This document shows positions 16,795 to 35,020 of a stretch of 64,000 bases of DNA, piece by piece. A program made the translations under genes and the position numbers. The stretch comes from Lentisphaerales bacterium (lineage in GTDB: Bacteria; Verrucomicrobiota; Lentisphaeria; Lentisphaerales; Lentisphaeraceae). The stretch spans positions 62,001-126,000 of the forward strand of contig JAKVBD010000005.1 of NCBI GenBank assembly GCA_022446985.1, read 5' to 3'. Positions within the stretch are counted from its first letter, which is position 1; each line of letters starts with the position of its first letter. The notes under the pieces are model-generated. The model ran no database searches, had not been told where the DNA came from, and saw only the letters and a list, made by a program, of their open reading frames with translations.

Positions 16795-16822
16795 AAAAAA
16801 GTCACGCAGAGTATCAAAGTTA
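16795..16822. repeat. Degenerate heptad repeat copy
   Basis: AAAAAAGTCACGCAGAGTATC resembles the CACGCAAAG(G)CGCAAAG-type repeat seen at 879-906 and in opposite orientation at 32161-32313. Only one and a half units are recognisable. Confidence 0.4.
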
Positions 16823-29848: not shown

Positions 29849-31891
29849 TTACTTTTTTACGTCTGTGATCTTAAAGTTGTCTTTGAGAAGATCCATTTCG
29901 ACTTTAGAGATGTAGTTGCTGTCTAAAATAATTTCTTCGACTTGGTTGTCCTTGAGCATGTTGATCCGGCTTTTATTGAATGGATTTGTTCGGCAGCCAA
30001 CGATAATCAGTTTTTGAAAAGTCAGGCCGCGTAGTTGGATGAACTCAAAAAAACTTGTGTGGCTTAGGTCGAGAGTGTGAAATTTTAGAGGTTTGAATAT
30101 ATTCAGATTATATTCAGCGAGTCTAAATGTATGATAGTTCTTGGGGAGTAATTTGAGAACACCATCTTTGTAATGGACTTTGTTCAAACCAGCTTTTTTG
30201 TCCCAAAGGTTATTTAAAGCATTCAGCATGACGGAAGAACTTTGTAAGTAATCTTCAGGCAGAGCATTTTTGTCAGAATAAAATTGCATATGCTTGGCAT
30301 AGAAAGCTTTCATTAACTCAAGAGAGCCAGCTCCGCTAATTTGCCACATAAGCTCACCGATTTGTTTTTCTGTCAGTTTATCAGCTTCACCTTTAACAGA
30401 AAGGGCCCACTCAGATACTTTAATTAAGTGATCTATCCCTTTGGCTTTGGTGCATTGCTTAAAGGAGTCAATTGATTGTTGAAATTCCTGAATAACGAAG
30501 TGCAGAACTGATTTTTTCTTAAGCATGGCATTGATCTTTTTTTGTTTTGTTTCGCGGCGAATCCCTTCATTGAGAAGGTCAATTTTTCTTCTGGCGGAAC
30601 TTAGATCCGGACTTTCGACAATTTCTATAAATAACAAACTGATTTCATCGCGAAGTTCGCTACTTATTTTTTGCTCTTCCTGTAAAAGCTTGAAGTTATT
30701 TTCGGCAATATTTTTTTGTTTCACAGCTTCATTTTTGGCCGTAACGGCCTGTTCGCGTTCTGTTTTGATTCTCTCGAAGGATGTATAGACAGTAATGGCG
30801 ATGAAAATGAAAATAAGGCCGATCACTGAAAGGGGCTTTTTGTTACGCAGGATGAGTAATTGAAGTTGGGTAAGAAAGCCGGCATTTTCAGCTGCTGTTG
30901 CAAAGCCGTGGATGAAATTGTCTAAGTCAGCTTTTAATTCAAGAACATCTTGGTAGCGGTCTTTTTTCTCTTTTGAAAGACTCTTGGTGACTATGGCTTG
31001 GATACTCTTGGGCACTTCAGGGAAGGTACTAATTGGGATTATTTGAGCTTCTTTAGTTTTTTCTAACAGGGTATCGATCGTGTCCCCCTGAATGGGAGAT
31101 TGACCTGTGAAAATAGTGTAGAGAATAGCGCCGAGGGCATAGATGTCGGAACGGGTATCTTTATCACCATAGGGAGTCGCCTGCTCTGGAGCCATGTAAC
31201 CCGGGCTACCTTTTATACGGCCATTGATCGTAGCATGGTTAAGGATATTTGGATCGAGATCTTCATCGATGTCCATGTCATCATCATCAGTCAATATTTT
31301 TGCCAGGCCCCAATCACACAGGTGAACCTCTCCGTATTCTCCGATCTGGATATTATCAGGTTTTAAGTCCAAGTGGATTATTTGTCTTGAGTGAGCATAG
31401 GCTACGGCATCGCAAATCTTGTTAAAAACATTGAGTAGTTGATTTTGGCTTAAAGATTTTTCTTTGATGATTACGTGGAGGTTTTTACCGCCAAGAAGTT
31501 CCATAGTGAAGTAGGGCGAGTCATTTTCATCAAAGCCTAAACCATAGATGGAGATGATATTTGGGTGTTGTAAACAGGCCGTCAGTCTGGCTTCTCTCAG
31601 AAAGCTTTCGGTAGATTCGCGCCCCGCGTCCTTTTTGAGCTTTGCCATGGCAATACTTTGCGATGCTTTGAGGTCGGTTACTTTGAAGATTTCTTTCATG
31701 CCGCCACGACCAATGAGTGATGGGGCTTTGTAGCGTTCAGAAAGCTGTTTTAGCTCAGTCTGAATGGGATAGGCCATCTGCAGGTCTTCTTCGCTGATGT
31801 CATTCAGTGTCATCGAGCAGTAATTGCGCAGGGTATCGCGCATACTGTCGAAGAAATCTTCTTCTTTCTTATCGCTTTCTTGAGATGCCAT
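29849..31891 (-). CDS. Transmembrane Ser/Thr protein kinase with LRR-like C-terminus
   Basis: The 680-residue kinase has its catalytic domain at about 55-335: glycine loop IGRGGMKEIF, the ATP Lys in SIAMAKLKK, the catalytic loop IIHLDLKPDN (HLD for the usual HRD) and LCDWGLAKIL (DWG for DFG). SPGYMAPEQ is the activation segment. A helix at about 354-370 crosses the membrane and a coiled coil follows. The outer part ends with leucine-rich motifs (KFHTLDLSHTSFFEF, QVEEIILDSNYIS). HLD kinases lack the Arg that senses activation-loop phosphorylation, so it may be constitutively active. It is divergent from the ECF sigma gene, an arrangement typical of PVC kinase-sigma modules. Confidence 0.92.
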   Translation of the reverse strand: MASQESDKKEEDFFDSMRDTLRNYCSMTLNDISEEDLQMAYPIQTELKQLSERYKAPSLIGRGGMKEIFKVTDLKASQSIAMAKLKKDAGRESTESFLREARLTACLQHPNIISIYGLGFDENDSPYFTMELLGGKNLHVIIKEKSLSQNQLLNVFNKICDAVAYAHSRQIIHLDLKPDNIQIGEYGEVHLCDWGLAKILTDDDDMDIDEDLDPNILNHATINGRIKGSPGYMAPEQATPYGDKDTRSDIYALGAILYTIFTGQSPIQGDTIDTLLEKTKEAQIIPISTFPEVPKSIQAIVTKSLSKEKKDRYQDVLELKADLDNFIHGFATAAENAGFLTQLQLLILRNKKPLSVIGLIFIFIAITVYTSFERIKTEREQAVTAKNEAVKQKNIAENNFKLLQEEQKISSELRDEISLLFIEIVESPDLSSARRKIDLLNEGIRRETKQKKINAMLKKKSVLHFVIQEFQQSIDSFKQCTKAKGIDHLIKVSEWALSVKGEADKLTEKQIGELMWQISGAGSLELMKAFYAKHMQFYSDKNALPEDYLQSSSVMLNALNNLWDKKAGLNKVHYKDGVLKLLPKNYHTFRLAEYNLNIFKPLKFHTLDLSHTSFFEFIQLRGLTFQKLIIVGCRTNPFNKSRINMLKDNQVEEIILDSNYISKVEMDLLKDNFKITDVKK

Positions 31892-32044
31892 AAAGTGAGC
31901 TGTTTACTTTTAAATGATTTCAGGATAGTATACAGTAATTTTAAGCGTGAGAAGTGGATCAGTCCACAGGTAACGCAAATTATGTGTTTAAGCAGTAAGT
32001 GAGAGTTGATGTTTTTGAAGTTTGGGATGGTGGAGAATAGTGGG

Positions 32045-32354
32045 TTTTTACCACCGGGATGGTGGTGTTCCCAGGGTTTTTTTGCCGCAAGGGATTGCGG
32101 CGCTCCCAGCATATTTTCTTTCATCCTTGTATTTTTGCGTGATACTTTGGCTTTCCTAATCTCTGCGCCCCTGCGCCTGTGCGTGAGATTTTACACATTT
32201 TTTTCGGCGGAGCGCTTTTCCCGGAGATGGCTGCGGTGTTCCCAGATTATTTACCGGCGGGTTGCCTATGTTCCTATGGTTTTTCTTTGCGTCTTTGCGC
32301 CTTTGCGTGAAACCTTAGGATTTTTACCATCGAGACGGTGGCGTTCCCAGGGGG
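32045..32354. repeat. Composite array: five hairpin units alternating with two heptad repeats
   Basis: Five units share a short stem-loop followed by GTTCCCAGG or a variant: 32045-32076 (CCACCGGGATGGTGG), 32082-32110 (GCCGCAAGGGATTGCGGC), 32220-32245, 32252-32279 and 32325-32354 (CCATCGAGACGGTGG). Two heptad stretches sit between them: 32161-32190 (CTCTGCGCCCCTGCGCC...) and 32285-32313 (CTTTGCGTCTTTGCGCC...). The order is unit, unit, heptad, unit, unit, heptad, unit. Base pairing in the stems is kept while the bases differ, which points to selection on structure. The last unit runs straight into the ECF sigma start codon. Confidence 0.75.
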
Positions 32355-32358
32355 TGTT

Positions 32359-32964
32359 ATGAATCAGACTTACTCAACGCGTTACACCTTGCTGGAAAGA
32401 GCTAAGAGTCAAAGTGATGCCAAAGCCTGGGAAGAACTGATTGGTTTTTACCGTCGTTACATCTATGTCATTATACGTTCTCAAGGCGTCAATGAAGATG
32501 ATACTGAGGATGTACTGCAGCAGGTTCTTGTTGAGCTTTGGAAATATCTTCCCGGTTACAATTATGATCCTAAAAAAGCAAAGTTTCGTTCGTGGGTCGC
32601 AACTGTAACGCGTAATCAAGTTATTAGCTTTATTCGCCGCCAGCAATCCCATGCCAAGAAACTGGATAAAGCACAACAGGAGTCTCAGGAGTCCTATTTA
32701 AACTCTATCAATACTCCAGAAGTTGAGGAGATTGCGACAAAAGAGTGGGAGCTTTTCTTATCGAATACAGCTTTGGATAACGTGGCTAAACATTTTTCCC
32801 CTAAAGCATTGGAAGCCTTCGAACTCTTTGCCAAAGGTTTCAAGGCAAATGACATAAGTAAGCAGTTAGATGTTAAGGCTGATTCTATTTACAAATATAT
32901 CAGCCGTATAAAAGTAAAGCTTGTGGAAGAAATCCAAAACCTGAAACGGGAATTGGATTTCTGA
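32359..32964 (+). CDS. ECF-type RNA polymerase sigma factor
   Basis: The 201-residue protein has sigma region 2 (AWEELIGFYRRYIYVIIRSQG, EDVLQQVLVELWKYLPGY, KAKFRSWVATVTRNQVISFIRR) and region 4 (LEAFELFAKGFKANDISKQLD followed by SIYKYISRIKVKL). I start it at ATG 32359 because GGGGGTG from the adjacent repeat unit forms its ribosome site 5 bases upstream; a GTG 7 codons earlier would read into the repeat. No anti-sigma gene follows; the divergent transmembrane kinase is the likely regulator, by phosphorylation as proposed for planctomycete ECF-kinase pairs. It converges with the exported globin, 6 bases apart. Confidence 0.93.
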   Translation: MNQTYSTRYTLLERAKSQSDAKAWEELIGFYRRYIYVIIRSQGVNEDDTEDVLQQVLVELWKYLPGYNYDPKKAKFRSWVATVTRNQVISFIRRQQSHAKKLDKAQQESQESYLNSINTPEVEEIATKEWELFLSNTALDNVAKHFSPKALEAFELFAKGFKANDISKQLDVKADSIYKYISRIKVKLVEEIQNLKRELDF

Positions 32965-33795: not shown

Positions 33796-35020
33796 CTACC
33801 CATATCGAATTGATTTGAATCCTGGTAAGTAGAGCTGTTGTGGTACGGTAACTATTCGATTTTTATGTTTTGCTGTCCCACAAAATTTTAGGAATGAGTA
33901 TAGATCAATCCTACTCCACATCACTTCTCTAATCACAGTGAACAGCCTTGTGAATGATGCTTTCCATTTTGATTGATATGAAATAAATCTCAAGATTACG
34001 TAGGTCAATAGTGCCGTCCAGATCTGCCATCTAACTGCATTCTCATTATACCCGAGAAAGTCTGCGAGTTGTAGGTTTTGCTTTATCTCCTTAAACAAAG
34101 ACTTCTGTAGCCCATCTTGATTTGTCCAGATCGGTAATAGACTGCGCCGCCCATTCAAAATTATTTGAGATAAAGCTCATAAGCTTTTCTTTGCCATCAA
34201 CGATAACTTTTACTTCGACTAATCTGAGCTCCCGGGGATAACCTTCAAATGACTTTTTAATACTAAGTTTTATTCGTTGATCTCGGATAATATTGCCTTT
34301 TGGAGCTGTATGTTGTCCGATAACTTCATACTTCATATTTGTCTTGGATCGGCTAACCCAATAAACACCGCGACCATTTAGATAGTCTGGGTGTTTGTAG
34401 TCAACATAGGCTTTATCAAAGACAATGATTTCTCCAACTTTAACTCCAGCACATAATTCCTTGGCTTCGATTGAGTCGTGACTTCCTGCTGATTTAACGA
34501 TTGCAAATGAAGGGAGAAAACTCTGTAGGCCTAATCTCATATTGCATCTTACTGCGGCTTTATGTCGACGGTACTTAGCCCAATCAAGAAATTAGCTGCC
34601 AAGCTAATAGCAGTTGAATCAACTGAATGAATCGTGCGTCTAAAACGATGAGGAAAGCCACAATAATTACGGCCTAAACCAAAGTCCGGGCACTGCACTT
34701 GGAAAGACCTTAAAACGATCCAGAAAAGCTCTTCTGCCTTATCTCCATTTTGGGTGCGAATCGCATAAAAAAGACCATTATGGCTTGGAGGATTCACTCC
34801 GCGAATTGTTATTAAATCGCCGGAACGGTATTGGAGGCAGTCACAAATATCATTCAGACTAACACTGTAAAGAGTTGACAATGAATTAGTGATACAAGAT
34901 GGCTCTAAGGTGAAAAGCTGCGGCTGGCGACGTCATATTTCTTAGAAAGTTTAGGCACTAAGTTAGGTGGAATGTGTTCGCATACTTGCTTTAAGATACT
35001 AAATTTTATATTTCGTTGGC
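33796..35020 (-). pseudogene. IS4-family transposase, decayed
   Basis: Read from right to left across at least four frames, the sequence gives an IS4-type DDE transposase. It shows ILKQVCEHIPPNLVPKL, a TAG, then VSLNDICDCLQYRSG and RFRRTIHSVDSTAISL (first Asp), IIVFDKAYVDYKHPDYL (second Asp), SISNN-type spacer, and SRWATEVFFKEIKQNLQL (Glu of YREK-like motif). Frameshifts lie near 34890, 34580 and 34110. Imperfect inverted repeats may flank it: TATTTTGTGACCAAA near 33630 and, inverted, TTTGGTCGAAATAAAATA near 35045. The element is dead; it could move only with a transposase supplied in trans. Confidence 0.85.

Follow-up and report, generated by a model that had tools for sequence, protein, structure and literature searches.

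Organization of the kinase/sigma locus and its repeat array

The window, i.e. the whole stretch of 64,000 nucleotides that was analysed, carries a repeat array of 310 bases at positions 32045-32354. The array lies inside the promoter gap between a Ser/Thr protein kinase gene and, divergent from it, a sigma factor gene, both of which are host context outside the array (Table 1); the sigma factor orthologue at locus L183 is 80% identical. All units (hairpins, tags and heptads) run in one direction and read on the minus strand, where a hairpin starts with TGGGAAC or TGGGAGC and a heptad is CGCAAAG or CGCAGAG. An earlier reading of this DNA (referred to as the sequence-only reading) had described hairpins, a GTTCCCAGG-type tag (reverse complement CCTGGGAAC) and heptads, and these were all found where it had placed them. 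Of its five stem-loops with kept pairing, covariance-model scores and folding leave three (37.7-40.1 bits, E 1e-6 to 5e-6, computed in 0.8 Mb), the other two having decayed.

Table 1. Repeat units, intergenic gap and flanking host genes at the array (positions in the window).
Feature	Position	Strand	Basis
Ser/Thr protein kinase, flanking host gene	29849..31891	-	Pfam PF00069, 147 bits; orthologues in family
Kinase/sigma intergenic gap, 467 bp	31892..32358	.	Array plus ~90 bp of other sequence vs ~90 bp in relatives
REP-like hairpin 1, CCTGGGAAC + ACCACCA/TCC/CGGTGGT, then AAAAA	32045..32075	-	R1 39.8 bits, E 1.6e-6
REP-like hairpin 2, GCTGGGAGC + GCCGCAA/TCCC/TTGCGGC	32079..32110	-	R1 40.1 bits, E 1.3e-6
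Decayed heptad array CACGCAAAAATACAAGGATGAAAG	32115..32142	-	Unit positions; alignment to C122
Heptad array CGCACAG-G-CGCAGGG-G-CGCAGAG, TCTCA before it	32161..32183	-	Pattern match C217:94161-94183, 2 mismatches
Degenerate hairpin CTGGGAACACCGCAGCCATCTCCGGG	32215..32246	-	R1 15.3 bits, E 0.91; poor fold
Decayed hairpin TAGGAAC + ATAGGCAACCCGCCGGT	32253..32278	-	Head at 32276-32270; aligned to intact C1/C122/C195 hairpins
Intact heptad array CGCAAAG-G-CGCAAAG-A-CGCAAAG	32285..32307	-	0-mismatch matches, two patterns
REP-like hairpin 3, CCTGGGAAC + GCCACCG/TCT/CGATGGT, one stem mismatch	32321..32351	-	R1 37.7 bits, E 5.1e-6
Sigma-70 region-2 (ECF-type) sigma factor, flanking host gene	32359..32964	+	Pfam PF04542, 43 bits

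As single-stranded DNA, hairpin 1 folds with -5.6 kcal/mol and hairpin 2 with -8.6 kcal/mol (z -2.98), and hairpin 3 is positioned 7 bp off the sigma factor ATG. Two heptad triplets are intact (32285-32307 and 32161-32183); a third, at ~32115-32142, has decayed and lies ~8-9 nt ahead of hairpin 2. The head of the decayed hairpin at 32253-32278, which now folds poorly, is located exactly 8 nt past the heptad array 32285-32307. Related heptads had also been noted at two other places in the window; the place near 879 comprises two units (887 CGCAGAA, 897 CGCAGAG), the one near 16795 a single unit (16805). No Rfam family was detected at the array or at sampled loci, and the array has no convincing terminator or promoter signal and no terminator-like site. 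A structured RNA comprising the entire array was considered and rejected, the whole-array fold being no better than shuffles (z -1.27).

The flanking kinase gene belongs to a large expansion with 79 matches in its own genome at E<=1e-30, and at several of the best-matching kinase loci a related sigma gene adjoins the kinase gene, as at the array. Approximately 1.7 kb from the array (34091-34540, minus strand) is an apparently broken DDE transposase remnant (PF01609), unrelated to the RAYT and GxxExxY genes discussed below, with open frames at 34549-34881 and 33796-34158 (-) beside it.

The orthologous kinase/sigma gap measures 84-94 bp in the nearest relative and three further genomes (L183-L186) compared to 467 bp here, and since the gaps of the relatives are only ~90 bp, the array is, judged by this comparison of gaps, a lineage-specific insertion. 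The gap of one relative, G002, is array-free, and its kinase-side stretch resembles that of the genome under study (TTTACTTTT...TATACAGTA).

The hairpins constitute a REP-like family cognate to a RAYT type

To follow the hairpins we used a covariance model, R1, trained on 30 copies from the array and elsewhere (RAYT loci were left out), which describes a TGGGA-N-C foot and a 7-bp stem. In the genome carrying the array (6.34 Mb in 271 contigs) R1 gave 107 matches at E<=1, i.e. approximately 100 copies, mostly intergenic and with stems that vary in sequence while their pairing is kept. A hairpin pattern had 36 matches in the genome vs 0 for its reversed version. Stem covariation among the copies was 0.654 vs 0.215 when shuffled, and 93% of the stem cells were paired vs 24-41% with the partner slid (32-40% for a shift of a single base); the set of copies was partly found by a pattern that fixes some stem positions, with the inner, freest-varying pairs left unfixed. 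The units are thus not unique to the array and pairing is kept in other copies, in line with the sequence-only reading.

Each of the six family genomes carries between 14 and 69 hairpins. Outside the family, at least 143 were counted in a single genome from a different family of the same class, and hairpins are absent from most of the remaining genomes in that class. At G011:C1:227941-228227, in a genome that belongs to the class but to a different family, hairpins form a tight tandem array with 32-bp spacing. Adjacent hairpins are mostly on the same strand (16 same vs 4 opposite pairs), i.e. the opposite-orientation neighbours of classical REP dimers are not the rule. Moreover, hairpins often follow genes and are biased towards the sense orientation of the upstream gene (21:4), a bias that could contribute to the same-strand concordance of hairpins and heptads reported below.

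Nineteen Y1-transposase matches were identified in the genome, and one group of these, L012-L015, is of the RAYT type. The L013 protein (P0001) scores 104 bits against NCBIfam NF047646, REP-associated tyrosine transposase (cut-off 80), and 43.6 bits against PF01797. Its motifs NHVH, WQKEYW and YILNNP agree with the pattern NH[IFV]H, WQ and YIxNNP tabulated for TnpA-REP subclass 2.4 (PMC6006769). Two hairpins lie just 5' of the L013 ATG, one inverted hairpin lies in frame ahead of the WQ motif, and L014 and L015 have several hairpins within their coding spans; the L013 and L014 frames are open and L015 has a stop. Hairpins of the same family thus both flank the RAYT genes and occur in frame inside them, and a passage of PMC6006769 gives REP insertion within the gene with the frame intact as unique to subclass 2.4. 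The RAYT-like frame of L014 (G000:C79:16757), of 314 codons, is open across at least six hairpin copies, which add AASESGAPS-type peptide repeats to the protein.

At 30 RAYT loci from several genomes we scored 47 hairpins (>=19.3 bits) where 1.7 were expected, and 22 hairpins were scored inside the RAYT gene span. Their direction depends on the side of the gene, with 31 sense and 5 antisense copies on the 5' side and 1 and 28, respectively, on the 3' side (p 3.5e-12, neighbouring copies and loci of the same genome being not fully independent). A RAYT gene is present in all seven genomes with at least 14 hairpins compared to 6 of 23 others (p 8e-4, not phylogeny-corrected; six of the seven belong to one family). 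The foot (TGGGA-N-C in alignment A1) differs from GT[AG]G, the unpaired foot of the GTAG superfamily, so the hairpins, which as short, covarying, high-copy palindromes are REP-like and cognate to a known RAYT type, are not GTAG REPs.

Four other RAYT-like genes, L001-L004, were considered as the direct source of the hairpins and rejected; they encode other Y1 transposases and their flanks lack matching hairpins. Just past the window end (G000:C217:126298-126519) lies a further Y1-transposase-like frame, which falls in a different subgroup and has close copies at C3 and C121.

The heptads belong to a class of repeats that bracket GxxExxY genes

Approximately 27 heptad loci were identified in the genome. 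A strict heptad pattern gave 18 matches vs 0 in the reversed control and a looser one 47 vs 14, and as the 14 control matches show, the looser count includes chance matches at two mismatches. On contig C239, heptads bracket a GxxExxY gene, L070, in inverted orientation, and the CGCAAAG triplets there are of the same sequence class as that at 32285-32307. The arrays in the window are one-stranded with no gene between them instead of an inverted pair around a nuclease gene, and the array heptads are therefore at most solo copies of the repeats that bracket GxxExxY genes.

The L070 protein matches the PD-(D/E)XK family profiles TIGR04256 (140.8 bits) and PF13366 (139 bits), and in 46 GxxExxY proteins D67 and K79 are invariant and E77 nearly so. 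An AlphaFold model (pLDDT 95.9) gave weak PD-(D/E)XK matches in Foldseek, the best in the PDB being 4ic1 (SSO0001; E 0.026), a Cas4 nuclease of the PD-(D/E)XK superfamily; by sequence, no GxxExxY relative was found in the PDB.

We then collected 80 related (L070-type) loci from named genomes. Heptads lie within 300 bp of the GxxExxY gene at 73 of these, in at least 15 phyla and mostly as inverted pairs. The density of CGC-type arrays is 2.7-2.9/kb within 250 bp of the gene vs ~0.1/kb beyond; such arrays are present at 49 of the 80 loci, and it is on counting CACAGAG-type units as well that the number becomes 73. At 51 loci a sense array upstream is combined with an antisense array downstream, and L309 has a long, near-identical inverted array pair around the gene.

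The type of repeat follows the type of protein. L070-type loci have heptads at 73/80 and GACAGGAT repeats at 2/80, while sister L071-type loci have heptads at 0/31 and GACAGGAT repeats at 25/31. In a maximum-likelihood tree of 115 GxxExxY proteins the repeat labels need 16 changes compared to 56.6 when shuffled, and the two repeat types split across a supported branch, the heptad side of which spans at least 15 phyla. Because protein clade and repeat type go together, the nuclease probably recognises its own repeat and, with host repair, spreads it.

In the genome under study heptad-class arrays are found at only two or three of the eight GxxExxY genes. By eye, the flanks of the four-helix-bundle (PF05635) genes and of most remaining GxxExxY genes carry different short-period repeats, with GACAGGAT, GTGGTCAGTGGTCAG, TTGACGTAGG and CGTTCTCGTACC among those at L071 and L073-L081. 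A search for cassettes on plasmids and phages, which might provide empty sites, gave one plasmid and no phage. The sequence-only reading had asked for target duplications; a clean empty site was looked for in G002 at the kinase/sigma gap and at L070 and found at neither: the gap has diverged in G002, and at L070 a rearrangement accounts for the synteny break.

The two repeat families are separate yet partly fused

Whether there are two families or one duplicated composite had been left undecided in the sequence-only reading, and both turn out to hold in part, in that the families are tied to different genes and a phased composite exists nevertheless. Thus, 98.8 kb of RAYT loci contain no heptad and 573 kb of GxxExxY loci a single hairpin head. 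Yet 8 of the 27 heptad loci in the genome have a hairpin at most 200 bp away, all on the same strand, whereas 2000 simulations in which intergenic regions were modelled gave a null mean of 0.48 and a maximum of 5, so the co-occurrence exceeds chance. In a sample of six large contigs (0.8 Mb including the window) a heptad lies no more than 150 bp from each of six hairpins, which fall in three loci, against a null mean of 0.85.

The spacing is also constrained. The gap from the last heptad to the hairpin head is exactly 8 nt in the window and at C1, C122 and C231. At C79, C122 and C195 it is 27-28 nt. Spacers are common to C1, C195, C250 and C100. The window block that contains 32115-32142 aligns over 95 bp with an intact heptad and hairpin block at G000:C122 (72% identity, E 1.3e-10). 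The fixed gaps, same strand and common spacers indicate that composite copies were duplicated as units. A search of the other family genomes did not reveal the phased pattern, and the fusion therefore looks recent or local.

At L346 and L347 (G000:C10 and C91) we noted a ~160-bp unit consisting of a hairpin, a ~75-bp spacer and CCACGAAAG-type repeats, and in one copy of this type of unit heptads replace the CCACGAAAG repeats.

Origin of the array

On balance we consider it probable that non-autonomous copies of RAYT-cognate hairpins and GxxExxY-nuclease heptads, which partly share a composite, piled up to form the array. That no mobilising enzyme is nearby, as claimed in the sequence-only reading, holds for related enzymes at the array itself; elsewhere in the genome there are candidates for both families, and from the sequence comparisons both families appear to be mobile. 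A RAYT (TnpA-REP, subclass-2.4-like) encoded elsewhere would act on the hairpins in trans and, by analogy with known TnpA-REP enzymes, would recognise the single-stranded TGGGA-N-C foot together with the hairpin, cleave, rejoin and so spread copies. While the hairpins are linked to RAYT genes, their cleavage and movement are thus suggested by that analogy. The heptads would be solo copies of those short-period repeats which enclose GxxExxY genes in the form of inverted terminal arrays. Bracketing, orientation and co-variation of protein and repeat are observed; we infer that the nuclease recognises and cuts its own array and that repair of the cut copies it. The composite (three heptads, 8 nt and a hairpin on the same strand) has been duplicated at several loci, and arrays would accumulate at sites where insertions are nearly harmless, such as this promoter gap, and decay there.

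One alternative is that hairpins and heptads make up a single composite element, in which RAYT mobilises the whole repeat, heptads forming its body, and the link to GxxExxY genes has no bearing on how the heptads reached this locus. The phased 8-nt gap, the same-strand arrangement at every shared locus and the spacers common to four contigs are what such an element would give, but 19 of the 27 heptad loci are more than 200 bp from any hairpin, heptads are lacking at most of the 67 hairpin loci and at every RAYT locus, and the phased pattern was not found elsewhere in the family. Hence we regard a single element as unlikely. Slightly less likely still is that the heptads are pre-existing host repeats into which GxxExxY cassettes home, rather than cassette ends. 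There are indeed 27 solo-array loci in the genome for two GxxExxY genes with CGC-type heptads; against homing, the inverted arrays on both sides at 51 of the 80 loci are as terminal repeats would show, the near-identical pair at L309 encloses the gene, and the repeat type tracks the protein clade across phyla.

Could the array instead have been selected to regulate the sigma/kinase pair, as an attenuator, terminator or RNA switch? It lies directly upstream of the sigma factor ATG and changes the promoter gap, and hairpins often sit 3' of genes in the sense orientation. However, it is missing from the orthologous gaps and copies occur at many unrelated places, which makes a regulatory origin very improbable. 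A chance or low-complexity pattern might account for the degeneration of two of the five stem-loops and for the lone unit near 16795, but the reversed-pattern controls (36 and 18 matches vs 0) and the strong stem covariation refute this, and we give chance next to no weight.

Returning to the pile-up of non-autonomous copies, we tentatively propose an extension of it, to which we assign somewhat less than an even chance. CGCAAAG-type heptads and GACAGGAT-type repeats may be the terminal recognition repeats of phylum-spanning minimal mobile elements, each consisting of one GxxExxY PD-(D/E)XK nuclease gene and clade-specific short-period inverted arrays. The array heptads would then be non-autonomous copies that hitch-hike with REP hairpins in a fused unit. 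The nuclease link, together with a sister clade having another repeat, makes the heptads directly testable by binding and cutting. Furthermore, the hairpins extend the RAYT/REP system in this lineage to a non-GTAG foot, and the existence of fused, phased copies suggests that a pair of unrelated repeat parasites can merge into a single spreading unit.

Comparison with known repeat systems

Among known systems, the hairpins are closest in description to the REP/RAYT system of subclass 2.4 (Bertels group 4; PMC6006769), with which they share the RAYT motifs NHVH, WQ and YI[LH]NNP, REPs that flank the gene in inverted orientation, ~100 dispersed and mostly intergenic copies, and stems that vary with pairing kept. 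They differ in the foot, TGGGA-N-C instead of GT[AG]G, in the mostly shared strand of adjacent copies, and in the fusion of some copies, at a constant spacing, with repeats of a second family. The GTAG REPs of PVC bacteria, e.g. GTAG-20 of Opitutus terrae (PMC3733652), are likewise high-copy palindromes with a family-variable foot tag, and, by their description, are set apart by the tag sequence.

The array heptads are of the class that brackets L070 and most related GxxExxY genes (TIGR04256/PF13366), also in other phyla, but they have no nuclease gene between them and are all on one strand. Although heptads of the CGCAAAG type span many phyla, we found in the open-licence papers and full texts searched no published source for them, no paper on heptanucleotide repeats flanking GxxExxY genes and no description of the heptad/GxxExxY link. 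The TAACTGA heptanucleotide repeats of Beggiatoaceae (PMC4679880) are also intergenic short-period direct repeats; their heptamer is another one, and for these a regulatory role was proposed, not linkage to a nuclease gene. Finally, the array resembles BIMEs in being an intergenic mosaic of palindromes and other conserved motifs, with the difference that the second motif here is the companion of another gene family and not a REP linker.
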